Shown in pieces: positions 18,223 to 32,080 of a stretch of 64,000 nucleotides of DNA. The translations under genes were made by a program, and so were the position numbers. This DNA is from Streptomyces xiamenensis (lineage in GTDB: Bacteria > Actinomycetota > Actinomycetes > Streptomycetales > Streptomycetaceae): NCBI RefSeq assembly GCF_000993785.3, contig NZ_CP009922.3:620001-684000 (forward strand), read 5' to 3'. Below the pieces are notes generated by a model, which made no database searches, was not told the DNA's origin, and was given only the letters and a program-made list of their open reading frames with translations. Numbering within the stretch: position 1 is the stretch's first letter; each line of letters starts with the position of its first letter.

Positions 18223-20547
18223 TCAGCCGGTCAGGTCGTCCGCGAAGGACGCCACCCAGGCCAGCGGGGCGTTCCAGTTGATGGTGACCTCGTTGGTCGC
18301 GTACGACTCGATGTGGTCGATGTAACACATCGCCGGGGCGCAGCCGGCCAGCCGCTCCTCCGCGACCGGATCCTGGAGCTCCTGGTTGGGGCCGCCGGCC
18401 ACGCTGCCGGGCGGCGGGTTCGGGAGCGCGGGGTTCAGCTGGTTCGCCCAGAACCGGTGGTGCTGGTTCTGCGCGTACCGCTCGCCGTACCCGGTGACGT
18501 ACGACAGGTTCAGCGGGTTGGCGCCCAGCAGGTAGTCGAAGCCGCGCAGCAGCGCGTCCCGGTGGGCGGGATCGCCGGCCAGATCGTAAGCGGTGCCGAG
18601 CACCACCATGTTGTTGAGGACCTGGCTGTTGGAGCCCCAGAAGTAACCGCCGCCGTCCGGCGAGTCGTAGGGCACCCCGTACGCCGAGCCCGCCGAGTCG
18701 GCCGCGAACCCGTCCGCCGCCTCGATCAGCAAAGCACGCACGGCCGCCAGTTCGGCGGCCGGCAGCTCGCTGTCCACGGTGGCCAGGCTCAGCGCGCCCA
18801 GACCGGCCGTGGACTGCCAGGAGAGCCCGTTGCGCGGGAAGACCGCGTCGACGTCACCGTGCAGCTCCGAGCCGAGCAGCGCCTGGCGGTAGCTGTCCTC
18901 GCCCGTGGTGACGAAGAGTTCGGCCGCCGCCCAGTAGAACTCGTCCCGGACGTCGGAGTCCTCGTACGCGCCACCGCCCTGCCCGTCGGTCGGGGGGGCG
19001 TACCGCTCCGGGTTCGCCAGCGCCGCCTGCCAGGCCGTGGTGGCCGTGCTCGCGCAGCGGTCGGCGAACTCCGCGTCGTAGGGCGCGTACAGCCGGGCAC
19101 ACTGCGCCGCCGCTGCCGCCAGGTTGAGCGTGGCGGCGGTGGACGGCGGGGCCAGCTCGCGCGGCTGCGGGTCCTGGTCGGGACGCAGCGGAAGGCCGGT
19201 CCACTCGCGGTCGTGCAGCTTGTGGTGCGCCATGCCGGCCAGCGGCTCACCGGCCGGGACCTGCATCCGCAGCAGGAACTCCAACTGCCAGCGCGCCTCG
19301 TCCAGAATGTCCGGGACACCGTTGCCCTGCTCGGGGATGGCGAGGGTGCCGTCCCCCAGCGCGTCGCCGTCGGCGCCGTCGGCGGTCAGGGTGCGCTCGT
19401 AGGAGGACATCAGCTGGGCCACCGAGATACCGCCGTTGACGACGTACTTGCCGTGGTCGCCCGCGTCGTACCAGCCGCCGTGCGCGTCCAGGGTGTAGTC
19501 GCACTGCCCGGGGCGGCAGGGCACCTCGAAGTCACCCTGGTTGGCGCCCTCGTTCAGGTGCCCGGCAGGGCGGGCGTACTGCTCCCCGACGTACTGCGCC
19601 TCGATCTCGATGCCACTGCGGTTGTGGTAGAAGTACGCCAGCGCGTCGGTGCGCAGCGTCGAGTAGAGGTCGTCGCCGATGGCGAACGGCTCGCTCACCT
19701 CCCCGTCGACCGCGACCGTGTACCCCTCCCCCGGTTCGGCGAACGCCCCCAGGTCGAAGGTGTGGACGTGCTGCTCGGAGGTGGGGTCGACGCCGACGGG
19801 AGTGGTGCTGCCGGTGGCCCGCTCCGTGCCGTCCGCGTCGCGCAGTGACCAGCTCAGGGGTGAGGTGGCGTCGCTGACCAGGGTGCCCCGCTTGGGCCCT
19901 TCGGTGAGGTAGCCGACCTGGTTGACGCGCACCGGCGATCCGGTGTCCGGCTCGTACACGGGGGGTTCGGCGCCGCCGCGCAGCGAGACGTCGTCCAGAC
20001 AGAAGGTGTACGGCTGCTGGTGACCGCCGAGTTGGAAGGCCAGCTGGGCGGCGGTGTTGTCGCTCTTGGCCGTGAAGACGTGGGTGACCGGCTCGGGGTC
20101 GGACCCGATGGGGTCCACGGCGGCCAGCTCGGTGGTCCAGGGCTCCTCGGCCAGTTGGACGAGGCTGCGGATGGCGACCGGGGCGGAGGCGGTCGCGGTG
20201 TAGGTGAGGGCGTACGTCTCGCCCTCGGTGAGCGGAAGATCGTCCTGCCCGATGATGGCGTCCCAGGCGTTCAGGGTGCCGCCGGGCACGTCGGCGCACA
20301 GCTGTCCGTCGACGACGGCGGCGGGGCTTCCCGGGGTCCACCACCAGGGGGCGGTGCCGTTCGAGAAGTCGCCGTTGACGATGAGTTCGGGTCCCTCGTC
20401 GGCGCCGGTGGCCTGGAGGGCGTGGGGGCTGCTGTCGGCGCTGGCGGTGGCCGAGACGGCGACCAGCGAACCGGCGAGCAGGGCGGTGACACCGGCGATG
20501 ACGGGCAGCCGGCGTCTGCGATGGCGTCCGGAAGGTGCTGAGGACAC
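18223..20547 (-). CDS. Secreted GH9 endoglucanase (cellulase) with N-terminal CBM4-like and Ig-like domains
   Basis: 774 aa. GTG start at 20547 with GGAAGGA 8 nt upstream. A basic, hydrophobic signal peptide (RHRRRRLPVIAGVTALLAG) occupies residues 8-40. Domain order: carbohydrate-binding CBM4/9-like (ELIVNGDFSNGTAPWWWTPG, about 55-195), CelD-type Ig domain (VRVNQVGYL, about 205-295) and the GH9 (alpha/alpha)6 catalytic domain. The catalytic acid pair is in GGWYDAGDHGKYVV; the C-terminal signatures are YVTGYGERYAQNQHHRFWA and the acid-bearing HIESYATNEVTINWNAPLAW. It hydrolyses beta-1,4-glucan outside the cell. A perfect CebR operator lies 43 nt upstream, so induction by cello-oligosaccharides is expected. 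Confidence 0.93.
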   Translation of the reverse strand: MSSAPSGRHRRRRLPVIAGVTALLAGSLVAVSATASADSSPHALQATGADEGPELIVNGDFSNGTAPWWWTPGSPAAVVDGQLCADVPGGTLNAWDAIIGQDDLPLTEGETYALTYTATASAPVAIRSLVQLAEEPWTTELAAVDPIGSDPEPVTHVFTAKSDNTAAQLAFQLGGHQQPYTFCLDDVSLRGGAEPPVYEPDTGSPVRVNQVGYLTEGPKRGTLVSDATSPLSWSLRDADGTERATGSTTPVGVDPTSEQHVHTFDLGAFAEPGEGYTVAVDGEVSEPFAIGDDLYSTLRTDALAYFYHNRSGIEIEAQYVGEQYARPAGHLNEGANQGDFEVPCRPGQCDYTLDAHGGWYDAGDHGKYVVNGGISVAQLMSSYERTLTADGADGDALGDGTLAIPEQGNGVPDILDEARWQLEFLLRMQVPAGEPLAGMAHHKLHDREWTGLPLRPDQDPQPRELAPPSTAATLNLAAAAAQCARLYAPYDAEFADRCASTATTAWQAALANPERYAPPTDGQGGGAYEDSDVRDEFYWAAAELFVTTGEDSYRQALLGSELHGDVDAVFPRNGLSWQSTAGLGALSLATVDSELPAAELAAVRALLIEAADGFAADSAGSAYGVPYDSPDGGGYFWGSNSQVLNNMVVLGTAYDLAGDPAHRDALLRGFDYLLGANPLNLSYVTGYGERYAQNQHHRFWANQLNPALPNPPPGSVAGGPNQELQDPVAEERLAGCAPAMCYIDHIESYATNEVTINWNAPLAWVASFADDLTG

Positions 20548-20589
20548 GGCTCTTGTCCTTCCACGGATGGGTGGGGGGTGGGAGCTCCA

Positions 20590-20603
20590 TGGGAGCGCTC
20601 CCA
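20590..20603. promoter_or_regulatory. CebR operator (14-bp palindrome) upstream of the GH9 cellulase
   Basis: TGGGAGCGCTCCCA is the exact consensus of the cellobiose/cellotriose-responsive repressor CebR known in Streptomyces. It is centred about 49 nt upstream of the cellulase GTG, where it would block promoter access or early elongation. The rest of the gap (20604-20870) shows nothing I can name. Confidence 0.88.
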
Positions 20604-20870
20604 ATGCATCCTGGGGGCGACCCCGTGCCCCGTCAAGGAGTCGCGCGGGCGCCGCATGCGTCCGGGGGGACGTCATGCGCCGTCACGTGGCGCTCCGGGC
20701 TTCCACCGCGAAGACCGCCCCGCAGCCACCGTCGTGGGCCGGCACCCCGGGATGCTCGGGTGCCGGCTACCGCGCCGACGCGGCGCCGAGTGCGGAGACT
20801 GCGCGGTGGGTCGACCGATCCTCCGTCGCCCCGCGGCCGCCACATCGAGCAGTTGCTGGGGCGGCCCACG

Positions 20871-24331: not shown

Positions 24332-24363
24332 CCGGTCCGGGAGCGCGCACGCTCCCGGACCGG
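24332..24363. terminator. Bidirectional terminator hairpin
   Basis: A perfect 14-bp stem, CCGGTCCGGGAGCG (24332-24345) with CGCTCCCGGACCGG (24350-24363), and loop CGCA. It separates the small-gene trio from the convergent ABC operon. Confidence 0.8.
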
Positions 24364-24389: not shown

Positions 24390-25247
24390 TCAGGAGACGA
24401 TGTCCTTGGTGCGGAAGCCCCGGAAGGCGAGGGCGAACAGCACCAGCGCGAAGGACACCGACACCGAGGCGCCCTTGAGCATGCCGGTCCACTCCAGTTG
24501 CGGCTGGAGAGCGTCCAGCCAGGCGAAGGCCCAGTGGGCGGGCAGGAATTCACGCCAGTCGCCGAGCGCCGTGATGGCGTCCAGGATGTTGCCCACGATG
24601 GTGAGGCCGATGGCGCCGCCGACCGCGCCCAGCGGGGCGTCGGTGACCGTGGACAGCCAGAACGCGAGCGCGGCGGTGACCAGTTGGCTCACGAACACAT
24701 AGCCGGTGATGAGCGCGATCCGGCCCACCGATTCGCCCGCGGCGATGCTGCCGCCGGTGGGCAGCTGGAGCGGTCCCCAGCCGTACGCCGCCGTTCCCAC
24801 GCCGAGCGCCACCAGGGGCAGCAGCACCATCGCGGCGGCGCTGAACAGCAGTGCCACGGTGAGCTTGCTGGCCAGCAGCCGTGAACGCGGCACCGGCGCG
24901 GCCAGCAGATAGCGCAGGGAGGACCAGCCGGCCTCCGAGGCGACGGTGTCGCCGCAGAACAGCGCCACCGGCAGCACCAGCAGGAAGCCGGCGGACAGGA
25001 AGAGGCAGGTGATGGCGAAGTTGGGGCCGGAGACGGTCGCCACGTCCATGATGCTGGGCGCGGAACGGTCGGCACGGCCGCCGCCGATGGCGAAGGCGAT
25101 GGCCACCACGAACGGCAGCGCGATCAGGATGCCCGCCACCACCTGGGTGCGGCGGCGGCGCAGTTGCCGGGCGGCCTCGACCCGCAGCGGGAGGGTGCGG
25201 CGGGGGCTGTAGCCGGGGGCGACAACGGTGTCGGTCGAGGCGTTCAC
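24390..25247 (-). CDS. ABC-2 type permease subunit
   Basis: 285 aa. GTG at 25247 overlaps the stop of the upstream hydrolase-ATPase gene (GTGA). About six membrane segments, beginning near residue 37 (VVAGILIALPFVVAIAFAI). The pattern is that of ABC-2 exporters: SEAGWSSLRYLLAAPVPRSRLLASKL near residue 115 is the coupling region. It should form the membrane channel powered by the fused ATPase upstream. The exported or removed substrate is unknown. Confidence 0.85.
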   Translation of the reverse strand: MNASTDTVVAPGYSPRRTLPLRVEAARQLRRRRTQVVAGILIALPFVVAIAFAIGGGRADRSAPSIMDVATVSGPNFAITCLFLSAGFLLVLPVALFCGDTVASEAGWSSLRYLLAAPVPRSRLLASKLTVALLFSAAAMVLLPLVALGVGTAAYGWGPLQLPTGGSIAAGESVGRIALITGYVFVSQLVTAALAFWLSTVTDAPLGAVGGAIGLTIVGNILDAITALGDWREFLPAHWAFAWLDALQPQLEWTGMLKGASVSVSFALVLFALAFRGFRTKDIVS

Positions 25248-28063
25248 GCCGCGCCTCCGATCAGGGTGAGGAAGGCGTCCTCGAGACGGCGGTGCGGGCC
25301 GATGGCCGACACCGGGACCTCCAGCCGGACGAGTTCGGGAAGGAGTTCGGTGGAGGTCATGCCGTCCAGCCGGATGAGCAGACCGTCGTCGGTGGGCCGG
25401 ACGTCGGCCACGCCGGGCAGGTCGGCGATCTTGTCGGTCAGGGCGTCGGGCACCGGGCGGGCGAGGGTGGCCAGCACGGTGTTCCCGGTGCCAGTGATGT
25501 CGGCGACGGGGCCCGCCTGGACGAGCTGTCCCCGGTCCATGACGACCAGATGGGTACAGGTCTGTTCCACCTCGGCCAGCAGGTGGCTGGAGACGATCAC
25601 GGTGCGGCCGGCCTCCGCGTAGCGGATCATCACCTCGCGCATCTCGCGGATCTGCGGCGGGTCCAGGCCGTTGGTGGGCTCGTCGAGGATCAGCAGGTCC
25701 GGCAGCCCGAGCATGGCCTGGGCGATGGCGAGCCGTTGCCGCATGCCCTGCGAGTAGGTGCGCACCGCCCGTTCCAGGGCGTCGCCGAGGCCGGCGATCT
25801 CCAGCGCCTCTGCCACGTGGGCGTCGGCGGTGGGGCGGCCGGTGGCGCGCCAGTACAGGTCGAGGTTGGCGCGGCCGGAGAGATGGGGCAGGAAGCCGGC
25901 GCCCTCGACGAAGGCGCCGACCCGGGAGAGGACCGGGGCGCCGGGGGTGATGCGCTGTCCGAAGACCCGGATCTCCCCGGCGTCGGGGGTGATCAGGCCC
26001 ATCAGCATGCGCAGGGTGGTGGTCTTGCCCGCCCCGTTGGGGCCGAGCAGGCCGAGGACCTGTCCGCGTTCGACCGAGAAGCCGAGGTCGCGCACGGCGT
26101 AGCGGTCGCTGGCGCCCGCGTAGCGCTTGGTGAGACCGGTGATGCGCAGCGGTGCGGGTTCGTTGCCGGCGGGCGTGCCGGTCGCGGCGTCGTCGGCGGC
26201 CTTGGCGGGGGCGGGCACCGGTGCGGCGGGCGTGCCGGTCGCGGCGTCCGCCGTCGCGTCGCCGTCCCCGGCGTCGCCGTCCGGCGTGCCGCTCGCCGCG
26301 GTGGCCGGGGCCGCGCCGGCGGGCGGCGGCGCGGTCGTGCGGCGGCGGCCGGTGAGCAGCAGGGCGGCGGCGATCGCCGCGGCGATCAGGGGCAGGCCCC
26401 AGGTCCACCAGGTGAGGGTGGCCGGCAGCAGGGTGGCCTGCGGCGCGGTGGGGACGGTCAGGGCCTGGTCGCCGGCCAGGGCCACGGTGTGGACGGCGGG
26501 GGCGGCCGGGGAGGCGTAGCCGAGGTCGGTGGTGGAGACCACCAGCCGCATGCGGTGGCCCGCTTCGAAGGGGTAGTCGATGGCGGGGAGCGGCAGGTCG
26601 GCGGTGGTGCCCTCCCCGTCGGTGCCGCTCACCCGCACGGGGGTGACGAGCTGGGCGGGCAGCGACTGGGTGCTGCCGTCCGGGGAGACGTCGTACACCT
26701 TGAGGAAGAGCACCGCCTCGGGGGCGTCCGAGGCGATGTGCAGGCGGACGCCGGGCGAGCCGGTGACCCGGACGGTGTCGGTCAGCGGCGCGGAGTCGAA
26801 GGTCGCGGTCTGGCCGGGGAAGTCCAGGGCCAGGCCCAGGCCGAGGGTGGACAGTCCGCTGAGCGAGCCGAGGCCGGGGACGGCGGAGATCGAGGGCGGG
26901 GTGCCGCCGGCCGGGTTGGTGAAGGTCTGGGGCTCGCCGCTCAGCTCCACCTGGCGCGGGTCGCCGTGCAGGCCGGGGTAGGTGTCGGCCTCGGCGCCGC
27001 GCAGGTTGGTGTCGCCGTTGGTGGTGTCGATGCCGGAGATGCGGGTGACCCGGAAGGCCGGTCCGGTGTCGGTGCCCTCCTCGCCCTTGAGGTAGTGGTC
27101 GAACCAGGCGGTGACGCGGTCCTGGACCCGGCCGCTCTCGGAGACGCCGCCGTCGTGTCCCGCCCAGGTCCAGTCGACGGCGACCGGGGCGCCGTTGGCC
27201 TCGATGGCCTCGGCCATGGCGTCGGCGTGGTCCAGGGGGAAGAGTGAGTCGTGCTGGCCCTGCACGATGAGGGCGGGGACGTCGATGCGGTCGGCGACGG
27301 CGGAGGGGCTGCGCTCGGTGAGCAGCGCGGTGGCCTCGTCGTCGGGGGCGCCGGCGACGGCGACGCGTTCGTACATCGCGCACAGTTCGGCGGCGAAGTT
27401 CCCGCAGCCGGGGGCGCCGTTCTCGCTCGCGCCGGTGGCGAAGAAGATCCCGGCCCACAGCTTCTTGAAGACGCCGTCGGGGAAGAGCGCGTCGGCGAGG
27501 TTCCAGTAGGTGATGCGGGGCGCGATGGCGTCGACCCGGTCGTCGTACCCGGCGGCCAGCAGCGAGATGGCGCCGCCGTACGAGTCGCCGCTGATGCCGA
27601 CCCGGGGGTCGCCCTCGGCGTCGAGCTGGACCTCGGGCTGCTGGGCGAGCCAGTCGATGAGGCGGCTGACGTCGGCGACCTCGGCCTCGGGGTCGTTCAG
27701 GCCGATCTGCCCGCCGGAGTCGCCGAAGCCGCGCGCGGACCAGGTGAGGACCGCGTAGCCGTCGCGGGCGAGTGCCTCGGCCTGGCCGCGCAGGTCGTGC
27801 TTGCTGCCGCCGAAGCCGTGGGCCAGCAGGACGGCGGGGCGGGGGGTGCCCGGGTCGCCGGAGGTGAAGTAGGAGGTGTCGATCCCTATGGAGTCACCGT
27901 CCGCGTCCGGCATCTGGGCCATCCGGTCCTGGCGGTGCACCTGGGGCCCGCTGTCCCCTGCGGCGACGGTCCAGGTGCCGGCTCCGACGAGGACGGCGGC
28001 CAGGGCTGCGGCACCCGCGAGCAGCCGCCCGCGCCGCCATGGCCTAGGAGGGGTCATGGGCAC
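25244..28063 (-). CDS. Fusion of extracytoplasmic serine hydrolase (CocE/S15-like) with membrane anchor and ABC ATPase
   Basis: 939 aa, unusual single polypeptide. GTG at 28063 has GGAAGGA 5 nt upstream; the in-frame ATG at 28057 is too far from it. Residues 11-35 are a signal-anchor. The alpha/beta hydrolase follows: AHGFGGSKHD near 81, nucleophile elbow GDSYGG (Ser161), late Asp in GQHDSLFP and His in WAGHDGG. A beta-sandwich domain like the C-terminal part of CocE/X-Pro peptidases comes next, then a membrane segment near residue 550 (WWTWGLPLIAAAIAAALLL) and an Ala/Pro/Thr linker. The last 300 residues are an ABC ATPase with GPNGAGKTT, signature YSQGMRQRLAIAQ and LILDEPTNGLDP. The expected topology places the hydrolase outside and the ATPase inside. 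Confidence 0.88.
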   Translation of the reverse strand: MPMTPPRPWRRGRLLAGAAALAAVLVGAGTWTVAAGDSGPQVHRQDRMAQMPDADGDSIGIDTSYFTSGDPGTPRPAVLLAHGFGGSKHDLRGQAEALARDGYAVLTWSARGFGDSGGQIGLNDPEAEVADVSRLIDWLAQQPEVQLDAEGDPRVGISGDSYGGAISLLAAGYDDRVDAIAPRITYWNLADALFPDGVFKKLWAGIFFATGASENGAPGCGNFAAELCAMYERVAVAGAPDDEATALLTERSPSAVADRIDVPALIVQGQHDSLFPLDHADAMAEAIEANGAPVAVDWTWAGHDGGVSESGRVQDRVTAWFDHYLKGEEGTDTGPAFRVTRISGIDTTNGDTNLRGAEADTYPGLHGDPRQVELSGEPQTFTNPAGGTPPSISAVPGLGSLSGLSTLGLGLALDFPGQTATFDSAPLTDTVRVTGSPGVRLHIASDAPEAVLFLKVYDVSPDGSTQSLPAQLVTPVRVSGTDGEGTTADLPLPAIDYPFEAGHRMRLVVSTTDLGYASPAAPAVHTVALAGDQALTVPTAPQATLLPATLTWWTWGLPLIAAAIAAALLLTGRRRTTAPPPAGAAPATAASGTPDGDAGDGDATADAATGTPAAPVPAPAKAADDAATGTPAGNEPAPLRITGLTKRYAGASDRYAVRDLGFSVERGQVLGLLGPNGAGKTTTLRMLMGLITPDAGEIRVFGQRITPGAPVLSRVGAFVEGAGFLPHLSGRANLDLYWRATGRPTADAHVAEALEIAGLGDALERAVRTYSQGMRQRLAIAQAMLGLPDLLILDEPTNGLDPPQIREMREVMIRYAEAGRTVIVSSHLLAEVEQTCTHLVVMDRGQLVQAGPVADITGTGNTVLATLARPVPDALTDKIADLPGVADVRPTDDGLLIRLDGMTSTELLPELVRLEVPVSAIGPHRRLEDAFLTLIGGAA

Positions 28064-28198: not shown

Positions 28199-28426
28199 AT
28201 GGGTCAGGGTGTGCACGTCACGGATCTGCCGGGGGTCGGGAAGCGGTACGACATCGATCTGGAGCGCGAGGACGAGCGGGTCTCGGTGGTGATCAGGTCC
28301 GGCGGGATGCGTGATCTGTACGTCTTCACCTCCCGCTCCGCCGACCCGACGGCGGTCCTGGAGCTGACGGAGGAGCAGGCCCGCAAGGTCGGGGCGGTGC
28401 TGTCGGCGACCTTCTTCGAGTCGTGA
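28199..28426 (+). CDS. Short TrkA-C-like regulatory subunit for cation:proton antiporter
   Basis: 75 aa. ATG at 28199 (MGQGVHVTDLPGVGKRYDID). It matches the small regulatory proteins encoded before CPA2 antiporters: an N-terminal segment ending in G-x-G-x-R/K-Y followed by short strands (VSVVIRSGGMRDLYVF) and a helix (EEQARKVGAVLSATFF). Longer homologues (KhtT type) carry a full TrkA_C domain, which is missing here. It lies 15 nt before the antiporter gene, so it is probably its cytoplasmic regulator. Confidence 0.75.
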   Translation: MGQGVHVTDLPGVGKRYDIDLEREDERVSVVIRSGGMRDLYVFTSRSADPTAVLELTEEQARKVGAVLSATFFES

Positions 28427-28441: not shown

Positions 28442-29920
28442 GTGCCGGAAGCTGATCTGCTCGGCCTGGGTGCCGCCGTACTGGTCGCGGGGCTGCTGGC
28501 GCGGCTGGCCCGCCGGTACGGGCTTCCGTCCGTGCCCTGCTACATGCTGGTGGGTATCGCGCTGGGCCCCGGTACACCGGGCCCGGTACTGATCTCCCAC
28601 CCGGACGATCTGGCCCTGATCGCCGCGCTCGGGCTGGTGCTGCTGCTCTTCCACCTGGGCGTGGAGTTCCCGGTGGACGAGGTGCTGGGCGGCGGGCGCC
28701 GCCTGGTGGTGGCGGCGGGCTGCTACATCGGGCTGAACATGACGGCCGGGCTGCTCTTCGGCTTCGCGCTGGGCTGGGGCGCGTCCTCGGCGCTGGTGAT
28801 CGCCGGGGCGCTGGGCATCTCCTCGTCCGCGATCGTCACCAAGCTGCTGATCGAGCTGCACCGGCTGACCAACGCGGAGACCCCGGTGATCCTGGGGATC
28901 ATCGTGCTGGAGGACCTGTTCCTCGCCTTCTATCTGGCGCTGCTCGCCCCCGTGCTGTCGGCCGGTGACACCCCGGGCCGGATCGCCCGGGACGTCGCCA
29001 TCAGCTTCGGGATGCTGGCCGGGCTGCTGCTGGTGGCGCGGTTCGGGGCCCGGGCGGTGGGGCGGGTGCTGGACTCCCGGGAGGACGAGGTGCTGGCGGT
29101 GGTCACCATCGGTCTGGTGGTGCTGGTGGCCGGGACCTCGCAGGAGGCGGGGGTCTCGGACGCCGTCGGGGCGCTGCTGACGGGTCTGGTGGTCTCCCGC
29201 ACGCGGCTGCGGGAGCGGGTGGAGCGGCTGGTGACACCGCTGCGGGACGTGTTCGCGGCGGTGTTCTTCGTGGCGTTCGGGCTGAGCATCGACACCGGAC
29301 ACCTGGGCGCGGTGGCGGTGCCGGTGGCGCTGGCCGTCGTGGTGACCGTGGTCGCCAATCTGAGCGCGGGCATCGTCACGGCGCGGCTGTTCGGCTTCAA
29401 CCAGCGCGGCGCGGCCAACATCGGGCTGACGGTGCTGGGGCGCGGCGAGTTCTCGCTGATCCTGGCCACGCTCGCGCTGGCGGCCGGCCTGGACTCGCGG
29501 ATCGGCCCGTTCGTGGCGCTGTACGTCCTGGTGCTGGCGGTGCTCAGTCCACTGTTCGCGGCGCGTTCGCGCTATCTGGCGCGGGTGATGCCGGACTGGC
29601 TGCTGCGCCGTGACTGGACGTATGTGCGTGAGGAGACGATCAGCACCTCCTGCACGCATCTGGATCAGATCCGGGTCACCGAGACGGATGCCGAGGAGTG
29701 CCCGGAGTGCGTGGCCACCGGGAGCGACTGGGTCGCGCTGCGGCTGTGCATGACCTGCGGTTACGTGGGGTGCTGCGACGACTCCCCGCACCGGCACGCC
29801 AGCACCCACGCGGCCCGGGCGCGCCATCCGATCATCCAGTCGGCGCAGCCGGGTGAGGACTGGCGCTGGTGTTTCATCGACGAGACCCTGGTGCGGGCGC
29901 CGCTGGGCACCAAGCGCTGA
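28442..29920 (+). CDS. CPA2 cation:proton antiporter fused to a C-terminal UBP-type zinc finger
   Basis: 492 aa. GTG at 28442 with GAGGAGG upstream. Residues 1-390 are a CPA2 exchanger with about 12 membrane segments: GLPSVPCYMLVGIALGPGTPG near 29, LFHLGVEFPVDEV, LGISSSAIVTKLLIELHRL near 123 and IIVLEDLFLAFYLALLAP. From about residue 400 a zinc-finger domain begins: CTHL, then CPEC, CMTCGYVGCCDDSPHRHASTH and the ending RWCFIDE. This is the Cys/His layout of ZnF-UBP domains, which bind ubiquitin C-termini in eukaryotes and have unknown ligands in bacteria. It lies in the cytoplasm and could sense a ligand or pH. Confidence 0.9.
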   Translation: MPEADLLGLGAAVLVAGLLARLARRYGLPSVPCYMLVGIALGPGTPGPVLISHPDDLALIAALGLVLLLFHLGVEFPVDEVLGGGRRLVVAAGCYIGLNMTAGLLFGFALGWGASSALVIAGALGISSSAIVTKLLIELHRLTNAETPVILGIIVLEDLFLAFYLALLAPVLSAGDTPGRIARDVAISFGMLAGLLLVARFGARAVGRVLDSREDEVLAVVTIGLVVLVAGTSQEAGVSDAVGALLTGLVVSRTRLRERVERLVTPLRDVFAAVFFVAFGLSIDTGHLGAVAVPVALAVVVTVVANLSAGIVTARLFGFNQRGAANIGLTVLGRGEFSLILATLALAAGLDSRIGPFVALYVLVLAVLSPLFAARSRYLARVMPDWLLRRDWTYVREETISTSCTHLDQIRVTETDAEECPECVATGSDWVALRLCMTCGYVGCCDDSPHRHASTHAARARHPIIQSAQPGEDWRWCFIDETLVRAPLGTKR

Positions 29921-29988: not shown

Positions 29989-30441
29989 GTGACCGAGCAT
30001 GCGACGAGCTCCTACGCGGAGCTGGGCCGCCATCTGTGGGCCGTGGGAGCGATCAACCGGGAGATGGGGCGATCCCTGCCGCACGACTGTCCCCCGGCGA
30101 CGCTGGCGTTGATCTCGATCCTGGCGCGGAAGGGGGAACTGCGCATGGGCGGGCTCGCCGACCTGATCGGCGTCGACATCTCGGTCGCCAGCCGCTACGC
30201 GACCCACGCGGTGGAGCGCGGCTGGGTGGAGCGCACGCCGGACCCGGACGACAAACGGTCCCGGCTGCTGCGGGTGACCGACAGCGGCGAGGAGCTGCTG
30301 GCCGAGCTGTCCGAGCGCTACGCCGAGGCCCTGTCCCGCTATCTCGCCGACTGGTCGGACACCGACGTCAGACACCTCATTGAACTGCTGATCCGCCTGC
30401 GGACGAGCTTCGACAGCTGCCGCGCCAAGCCGGCGGAGTAA
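29989..30441 (+). CDS. MarR-family transcriptional regulator
   Basis: 150 aa. GTG at 29989; no clear ribosome site, so the transcript may be nearly leaderless. Winged helix-turn-helix at about residues 35-100: LALISILARKGELRMGGLADLIGVDISVASRY and the wing DPDDKRSRLLRVTDSG. MarR proteins are dimeric repressors released by small phenolic or drug ligands. It precedes a DHA2-type efflux pump by 28 nt, so local repression of the pump is the likely role. Confidence 0.9.
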   Translation: MTEHATSSYAELGRHLWAVGAINREMGRSLPHDCPPATLALISILARKGELRMGGLADLIGVDISVASRYATHAVERGWVERTPDPDDKRSRLLRVTDSGEELLAELSERYAEALSRYLADWSDTDVRHLIELLIRLRTSFDSCRAKPAE

Positions 30442-30469
30442 CCAACCAGGGAAGAAGCACCCGAAGCGT

Positions 30470-32080
30470 ATGTCCTCACCTCGTCCTGCCCCCGCGCGTC
30501 ACGACGCCGCCCCCGCCGCCGCCCCGCCCGAGGCCGCGCCGGAGGGCGCCGCCATGACGCACCGGGAGATCCTGCGGGCGCTGTCCGGGCTGCTGCTCGG
30601 CATGTTCGCCGCCATCCTCTCCTCCACCATCGTCACCAACGCGCTGCCGCACATCATCGCGGACCTCGGCGGCGGCCAGAGCGCGTACACCTGGGTCATC
30701 ACCGCGACCCTGCTGGCCATGACGGCCTCCATGCCGCTGTGGGGCAAGCTGGCCGACCTCTTCAACAAGAAGCTGCTGATCCAGCTGGCGCTGATCATCT
30801 ACATCACCGGCTCGGTGATCGCCGGGCTCTCGCAGAACTCCGCGACGCTGATCGGCGTACGGGTGGTGCAGGGCATCGGCGTGGGCGGACTCGCCGCGCT
30901 GGCGCAGATCATCATGGCCGCCATGACCACCCCGCGCGAGCGCGGCCGGTACGGCGGTTACTTCGGCGCCACCTTCGCCGCCGCGACCGTCTCCGGGCCG
31001 CTGATCGGCGGGGTCATCACCGACACCCCGGGGCTCGGCTGGCGCTGGTGCTTCTACATCGGGGTGCCGATAGCCGCGGTCGCCCTGGTGGTGCTCCAGC
31101 GCACGCTGAAGCTGCCGGTGGTCCGGCGCAAGGTGCGCATCGACTGGCTGGGCGCGCTGCTGCTGTCCGGCGCCGTCTCCCTGCTGCTGATCTGGATCAC
31201 GCTGGCCGGCGACTCGTACGCCTGGGCCTCGTGGCAGACGGCCGTGATGACCGGAGGCTCGGTGGTGCTGGGCCTGCTGTTCGTGCTGGCCGAGTCGCGG
31301 GCCAGTGACCCGATCATGCCGCTGCGGCTGTTCCGGGACCGTACGATCACGCTCTCCTCGCTGGCGTCCCTGTTCGTGGGGATCGCGATGTTCAGCGGCA
31401 CGGTGTTCTTCAGCCAGTACTTCCAGCTGGCGCGCGGCGAGTCCGCGACCATGTCGGGAGTCATGACGATCCCGATGATCCTGGGTCTGTCGGTCTCCTC
31501 CACCGTCTCGGGGCGGATGATCTCGCGCACCGGGCAGTGGAAGAACTGGCTGGTCGCGGGCGGTCTGCTGATCAGCTCCGGGATGCTGCTGCTGGGCACC
31601 ATCCGGTTCGACACCGCGTACTGGCAGGTCGCCGTCTTCATGACGCTGCTGGGTCTGGGCATCGGCATGATGATGCAGAACCTGGTGCTGGCCTCGCAGA
31701 ACCAGGTGCAGCCCTCCGACCTGGGCGCGGCCAGCTCGGTGGTGAACTTCTTCCGTTCCTTCGGCGGCGCCCTGGGCGTCGCGGCGCTGGGCGCGGTGCT
31801 CGCCAACCGGGTGAGTCAGTACACCCGGGAAGGGCTGGCGCAGCTCGGCGTGGACGCCGGTGATGGAGCCGTCGGGGGCGGCGGCATCCCGGACCTGAGC
31901 CAGCTCCCCGACCCGCTGCGGGCGGTGCTGGAGACGGCGTACGGGCACGGGGTCGGGGACGTGTTCCTCTTCGGCGCCCCGGCGGCGGTGCTGGCCTTCG
32001 TGATCACGCTGTTCATCAAGGAGGTCGCGCTGCGCGGCAGCCAGCAGGCGCCGCAGGCGAGCGGGACCGCCTCCTCCTGA
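30470..32080 (+). CDS. MFS multidrug efflux transporter, DHA2 (EmrB/QacA) family
   Basis: 536 aa. ATG at 30470 after AGGGAAG. About 14 membrane segments, the number typical of DHA2 exporters. Motifs: SSTIVTNALPHIIADLGG near residue 45 (motif D1), LWGKLADLFNKK near residue 89 (motif A) and GVRVVQGIGVGGLAALAQI near residue 126 (motif B). The proline/glycine motif C appears as GPLIGGVI. It exports drugs or metabolites in exchange for protons and is probably controlled by the upstream MarR. The C-terminal end is polar. Confidence 0.92.
   Translation: MSSPRPAPARHDAAPAAAPPEAAPEGAAMTHREILRALSGLLLGMFAAILSSTIVTNALPHIIADLGGGQSAYTWVITATLLAMTASMPLWGKLADLFNKKLLIQLALIIYITGSVIAGLSQNSATLIGVRVVQGIGVGGLAALAQIIMAAMTTPRERGRYGGYFGATFAAATVSGPLIGGVITDTPGLGWRWCFYIGVPIAAVALVVLQRTLKLPVVRRKVRIDWLGALLLSGAVSLLLIWITLAGDSYAWASWQTAVMTGGSVVLGLLFVLAESRASDPIMPLRLFRDRTITLSSLASLFVGIAMFSGTVFFSQYFQLARGESATMSGVMTIPMILGLSVSSTVSGRMISRTGQWKNWLVAGGLLISSGMLLLGTIRFDTAYWQVAVFMTLLGLGIGMMMQNLVLASQNQVQPSDLGAASSVVNFFRSFGGALGVAALGAVLANRVSQYTREGLAQLGVDAGDGAVGGGGIPDLSQLPDPLRAVLETAYGHGVGDVFLFGAPAAVLAFVITLFIKEVALRGSQQAPQASGTASS

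Follow-up and report, generated by a model that had tools for sequence, protein, structure and literature searches.

In the ATP-binding cassette (ABC) machines NosDFY and FtsEX, cycles of ATP use inside the cell move a domain that lies outside it. PCAT exporters carry an N-terminal C39 peptidase on the same chain as the ABC transporter and couple cleavage to export, while LanFEG transporters have two permease genes, LanE and LanG. Mechanotransmission has also been described for MacB and LolCDE (PMC10094684). Here we analyse a gene from a stretch of 64,000 nucleotides of Streptomyces xiamenensis (hereafter the window; positions 620001-684000 of the 5.96 Mb single-contig genome) that joins an alpha/beta hydrolase, a membrane helix and a complete ABC ATPase in one frame, next to a gene for an ABC-2 permease (Table 1). 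This arrangement differs from the systems above. NosDFY is not known to have a hydrolase fused to its ATPase, and its outside partner NosD is a separate chain. The peptidase of PCAT exporters belongs to the chain of the membrane domain and works inside the cell, whereas the enzyme of the fusion is predicted to lie outside and is joined to the ATPase via one helix. Systems of the LanFEG type lack an outside enzyme, and the window has one permease gene rather than two. A description of the fusion was not found among the best-ranked matches in open-access titles and abstract openings, although domain-architecture databases may record it; the available part of an alpha/beta hydrolase classification (PMC11878206) gives PepX_C and PepX_N as additional S15 domains, and no ABC ATPase.

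One polypeptide and its distribution

The gene reads without internal stop from a GTG start to a TGA stop and encodes 939 amino acids (aa). Three Pfam families match this one frame above their cut-offs: Peptidase_S15 (76.8 bits, cut-off 23), PepX_C (51.8 bits, cut-off 22.5) and ABC_tran (residues 658-798; 106.2 bits, cut-off 25). The NCBIfam model CocE_NonD (TIGR00976) was also passed (108.5 bits versus 66.3); for the ATPase part, all NCBIfam ABC models among the matches listed stayed below their own cut-offs. A preliminary description of the window had proposed just such a protein, a single chain made of a CocE/S15-like hydrolase, a membrane helix, a flexible linker and a full ABC ATPase, coupled to an ABC-2 permease, and the domain search agrees with it.

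In order to examine orthologues, GTDB genomes were scanned by a pattern-based method with residues 1-604, and the best 80 of 120 loci were checked with phmmer together with 12 further loci (L001, L002, L083-L092), two plasmid records and 20 regions. Hydrolase and ABC ATPase lie in one frame in 72 loci; two are the window itself (L001, L083), leaving 70 others, some of them near-copies (e.g. L084 and L007, L085 and L006). The 20 regions had been picked for strong matches or long frames; 13 were fused, six unfused, and one (L107) runs off its contig. Frames are broken in only two of the 70 (L046 and L052, both drafts), within the hydrolase part and not at the junction with the ATPase. In these two loci the hydrolase part is split over several frames, its C-terminal portion shares one frame with the ATPase, and a permease frame remains.

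A sample of 101 Streptomyces genomes, among them that of the window, yielded hydrolase matches with E of 1e-30 or better in 94 and no match in seven. In 92 the hydrolase lies in a frame of at least 873 aa; of the other two, G008 is fragmented, with a 505-aa frame, and G092 matches weakly. The ABC part was checked directly in ten loci from this sample, and all ten are fused. The fusion is thus a genuine single polypeptide, common in Streptomyces, a genus studied for drug production. The 70 other fused loci and the long frames in Streptomyces rule out a frameshift, chimaera or assembly artefact, and the probability that two genes were joined by a sequencing or assembly error is negligible. The broken drafts say nothing about the window. 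The preliminary description would have been refuted by orthologues with separate genes and a frameshift at the junction in the window, but the orthologues are fused.

At the order level a threshold of E 1e-30 is reached in 177 of 197 genomes (fusion checked in part of them), and at the phylum level one of E 1e-25 in 71 of 396, where some of the matching proteins are fused and others stand alone. The fusion was seen in Streptomycetaceae, Streptosporangiaceae (Nonomuraea, Planobispora), Pseudonocardiaceae (Actinokineospora), Geodermatophilaceae and Nakamurella; in the pattern-based scan, a biased sample, all fused loci were actinobacterial. Among the matches listed, the closest named relative at the locus is Streptomyces harbinensis, with a best segment that is 82% identical. 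A Tsukamurella plasmid also bears the fusion, and its record reads 'alpha/beta fold hydrolase' and then 'ABC transporter permease', which draws attention to proteins annotated for one half only. Two genomes of the order (G637 and G660) have two hydrolase matches each in frames of at least 884 aa, possibly reflecting a second fused copy.

Conserved features and structural likeness

We aligned the window protein with the 70 others (71 rows); the two broken frames were retained and appear as gaps, and one fused row (L065) ends within the ATPase at a contig end. The GDSYGG elbow of the preliminary description starts at residue 159, which makes Ser161 the nucleophile, in agreement with that description. 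Together with Asp272 and His303 it forms a catalytic triad present in 69 of 71 rows, that is, in all 69 that can be scored. The ATPase is equally complete, with GPNGAGKT, YS[QH]GMxQ, the signature glycine, DEP and SSH in 71/71 rows and Thr797 in 70.

The Kyte-Doolittle scan found two hydrophobic stretches in the 939-aa protein, residues 15-33 and 554-572. The N-terminal one has a hydropathy of at least 1.3 in 68 of the 71 proteins, and the second reaches at least 1.5 in 69, the exceptions being L005 (1.43) and L052 (none). In all 71 rows, two or more of the ten residues that follow the helix are basic (L052 without a real helix), the usual mark of a cytoplasmic end. Cys220 and Cys228 are present in 69 rows (L046 and L052 are broken there), with no third cysteine between positions 60 and 545 in any of these; the invariant pair therefore probably forms a disulfide, which would place the hydrolase outside. 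Hydropathy, basic residues and cysteine pair together support the predicted topology of the preliminary description, an outside hydrolase and an inside ATPase. Its flexible linker holds for the window protein, where 61 residues separate helix and ATPase, but is not a family feature. Of the 71 rows, 64 have a spacer of 11-22 residues (others: L003, 42; L037, 46; L038, 32; L094, 103; L108, 26; and the broken L052), and the long linker of the window protein is accordingly best seen as a local elaboration.

The pairing with the permease is just as regular. The 285-aa permease frame is above the Pfam cut-off for ABC2_membrane_4 (35.1 bits versus 27) and for ABC2_membrane_2, and its start sits in the stop codon of the fusion, in a four-base overlap (GTGA). 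In 69 of the 70 other loci a permease gene adjoins the fusion, starting within 150 nucleotides on the same strand; the sole exception, L052, has unknown bases there.

An AlphaFold2 model of the fusion as a single chain, from a 38-row alignment, has a mean predicted local distance difference test score (pLDDT) of 80.2 and a predicted template modelling score of 0.70, with residues 573-634 below a pLDDT of 50. Besides the window, A1 contained 37 and A3 contained 29 of the 44 references that were eligible, and A2 contained 28 loci; A2 is a profile of hydrolases that takes in stand-alone relatives, three of them proteobacterial. The column of Tyr44, the oxyanion-hole tyrosine of cocaine esterase CocE, is occupied by Phe84 (aligned to the Tyr44Phe mutant 1L7R), with Phe in 69 of 71 rows, so that this hallmark of cocaine esterase proper is lacking. 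CocE otherwise shares the triad and both Pfam domains, and the modelled hydrolase superposes on it (1l7q) with Z 27.6 and a root-mean-square deviation (rmsd) of 2.9 over 450 residues at 21% identity; profile A2 found it at E ~1e-16. The modelled hydrolase also matches an X-prolyl dipeptidyl aminopeptidase (6nff, Z 27.0), and PepX_N is absent among the Pfam families listed for the fusion protein. The lipase PaL (PDB 8YZN/8YZO) comes closer, the whole modelled hydrolase superposing on 8yzo with Z 33.0 and rmsd 2.8 over 447 residues at 26% identity, and profile A2 matching it at E 2e-115 over positions 3-486 of 505. The solved chains of PaL and CocE lack an ATPase, unlike the fusion. The CocE/S15-like assignment of the preliminary description stands as to the families, both over cut-off, but the hydrolase is nearer to the esterase PaL than to the S15 dipeptidyl-peptidase. 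From the shared name, we infer that the 8YZN protein is the Pseudomonas alcaligenes lipase called PaL, which is reported to cleave L-menthyl propionate (PMC9902596); because of the relation to PaL, ester rather than X-Pro substrates are predicted to be favoured.

Fold matches of the modelled ATPase are closely spaced: TM0544 (Z 29.7, 235 residues), ABCA4 (29.2, 306), TM_1403 (28.3, 264) and, behind these, NosF (7o0y_C; Z 28.1, rmsd 4.9, 292 of 298 residues, 32% identity), whose match includes the C-terminal extension. A sequence search put ABCA transporters first, with NosF the best small bacterial chain. The permease, modelled as a single chain with pLDDT 84.4, matches NosY best (Z 17.9, rmsd 3.5, 233 of 250 residues), followed by ABCG2 (16.6), a mycobacterial efflux pump (15.7), ABCG1 (15.5) and PmtCD (15.2); a phmmer search of the permease against PDB gave one match at E up to 1, which was unrelated (E 0.21). 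Likeness to LanFEG, BcrA and DrrA exporters comes from NCBIfam: among the matches listed, DrrA and lantibiotic-protection models rank first for the ATPase, below cut-off, and the permease weakly matches MutG and MutE. Scores fell well below the curated thresholds for LanF (TIGR03740, 163.7 versus 309.75), LanE (TIGR03733, 16.1 versus 117.2) and LanG (TIGR03732, 15.4 versus 145.2).

Relatives of the separate parts and possible roles

Stand-alone relatives of the hydrolase form branches apart from the fused ones. The fused rows cluster in a quick tree built from 61 hydrolase domains, of which 46 are fused and 15 stand-alone; two label changes are needed, and since the starred branches force just one, the fusion may have had a single origin. 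The tree flags some rows for long branches and skewed composition, and omits the window (L001, L083), L046, L052, L103, L107, L109, L110, L113, L114, 25 near-copies dropped by hand and rows matching fewer than 400 query residues (L044, L057, L059, L062, L074). The flanking DNA examined around 19 stand-alone hydrolases holds no ABC frame that scores above 40 bits. Among 15 stand-alone relatives examined (L063 ends at a contig edge), one, L055 (1208-3619), has a C-terminal hydrophobic stretch and a basic tail without an ATPase, and may represent an anchored intermediate. Four unfused relatives of the ATPase were also looked at; two adjoin a single permease, and two lie in lanthipeptide-type clusters. 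At one locus (L118, 2740-4927) the unfused ATPase adjoins lantibiotic dehydratase genes and a protein that weakly resembles zincin peptidases (DUF3267, below cut-off).

The most likely role, held tentatively, is that of a predicted ABC-2 (type V) exporter encoded by two genes, whose exit would bear an esterase. The complex would probably comprise two permeases and two fusion proteins; with the hydrolase outside and the ATPase inside, each ATPase would be linked by its membrane helix to an esterase-like domain across the membrane. ATP use may drive a small lipophilic ester or acylated compound outward, and the tethered enzyme may cut it on emergence, with irreversible export, release of a mature product or destruction of a toxic compound as conceivable outcomes. 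The usually short spacer suggests that the helix is packed beside the permease rather than serving as a loose tether. Export is further suggested by the likeness of the permease to NosY and then to lipid and drug exporters (ABCG2, ABCG1), an efflux pump and PmtCD, by the lanthipeptide-type genes adjoining two of the four unfused ATPase relatives, by the joint conservation of fusion, triad, ABC motifs, cysteine pair, basic residues and adjoining permease, and by a hydrolase whose nearest match, along almost the entire length, is the esterase PaL and whose fused rows cluster in the tree. Other points weigh against an exporter. NosY, which the permease matches best, is part of a machine that moves an outside partner and is not known to export; some stand-alone hydrolases also have a hydrophobic segment at the N-terminus, so that the enzyme can do without the pump; and a third gene that would name the substrate was not recognised beside the fusion in a noisy neighbour analysis. 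The tie between outside hydrolysis and ATP-driven transport or permease gating that the preliminary description read from the fusion is hypothetical. If outside cutting is indeed coupled to ATP use inside, the protein would provide a compact one-chain model of pump-enzyme coupling across the membrane.

The match of the permease to NosY keeps another reading open, which we regard as unlikely: the protein would be a mechanical actuator in which ATP cycles inside move the outside domain and the ABC-2 unit carries nothing, switching the ectoenzyme or giving it access to an envelope substrate. Besides NosY as the best solved permease match, it draws on NosF being among the closest ATPases, C-terminal extension included, and on the outside enzyme being joined covalently to the ATPase, the spacer being short in most rows. 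However, three other ATPases match better than NosF, and ABCG2 is a mere 1.3 Z units below NosY. By analogy, such an actuator might be an ATP-driven ectoenzyme, a non-transporting ABC-2 machine that drives or gates an outside serine esterase via a single helix, as a covalent version of the NosDFY/FtsEX principle, a proposal to which we likewise give little credence.

Two further readings separate the activities of enzyme and pump. A self-protection module, in which the outside esterase inactivates an antibiotic or membrane-active compound while the pump independently expels what has entered, would suit both the DrrA and lantibiotic-protection models that head the NCBIfam ATPase families below cut-off and the two unfused relatives in lanthipeptide-type clusters. 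It is nonetheless improbable, as its occurrence in 92 of the 101 sampled Streptomyces genomes is easier to reconcile with a general role than with immunity of producers, and none of the eight window neighbours checked resembles a secondary-metabolite biosynthetic enzyme. Still less probable is a mere tether, the fusion simply anchoring and co-delivering a secreted esterase that is functionally unlinked to the pump. The existence of stand-alone relatives, the C-terminus of L055 (one of 15) and the long disordered linker of the window species would agree with it, but the arrangement is found across several actinobacterial families with its motifs kept, and none of 19 stand-alone hydrolases has an ABC frame beside it in the flanking DNA examined.

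Surrounding DNA

Table 1. Features of the fused gene and its permease partner in the window.
Feature	Position	Strand	Remark or basis
Fused hydrolase-membrane helix-ABC ATPase gene	25244..28063	-	939 aa; alternative ATG at 28057
Hydrophobic segment at the N-terminus, residues 15-33; either a signal anchor or a signal peptide	27965..28021	-	Kyte-Doolittle 1.74
Alpha/beta hydrolase core, Peptidase_S15 match, residues 72-291	27191..27850	-	Pfam
Ser161 codon	27581-27583	-	within Peptidase_S15 match
Asp272 codon	27248-27250	-	within Peptidase_S15 match
His303 codon	27155-27157	-	slightly past end of Pfam Peptidase_S15 match
Cys220 to Cys228, invariant pair, probable disulfide	27380..27406	-	alignment
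PepX_C domain, residues 416-520	26504..26818	-	Pfam
Membrane helix, residues 554-572, then RRR	26348..26404	-	Kyte-Doolittle scan
Low-complexity linker, residues 573-634	26162..26347	-	pLDDT <50
ABC ATPase, residues 636-939; C-terminal extension also alignable with NosF	25247..26158	-	Pfam, alignment, fold match
ABC-2 permease, 285 aa, NosY-like fold	24390..25247	-	Pfam, fold match
Perfect 12-bp inverted repeat, 4-base loop, 3' of permease stop; possible terminator without T run	24334..24361	-	by eye

All-against-all clustering of neighbouring frames gave a 34-locus group that suggested a conserved Ser/Thr kinase as a third gene. This candidate was rejected: tblastn with the kinase matched just 5 of 70 loci, one of the five matches being weak and upstream, and the group is therefore mostly noise from spurious high-GC frames. 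Besides the permease, further neighbour clusters span up to 14 loci; for L084-L092 the downstream sequence extends over ~570 bases only. No NosD-type partner was recognised as a third gene in this noisy clustering, in which no NosD model was run, and no secondary-metabolite biosynthetic enzyme is among the eight neighbouring window proteins checked. PADLOC matches were confined to the ATPase part, and no defence role is claimed. Prediction around the genes found no consensus promoter or terminator and did not call the inverted repeat a terminator; a TA-rich hexamer near the start is visible by eye in the printed upstream stretches of nine orthologues.

Elsewhere in the window, a glycosyl hydrolase of family 9 with CelD_N and CBM_4_9 domains is encoded at 18223-20676 (minus strand), and a MarR regulator followed by a major facilitator superfamily transporter at 29989-32080 (plus strand). 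The 492-aa frame at 28442-29920 (plus strand), with a 75-aa frame beginning upstream of it at 28199, combines a Sodium/hydrogen exchanger with a C-terminal zf-UBP zinc finger (residues 420-485, 38.9 bits).

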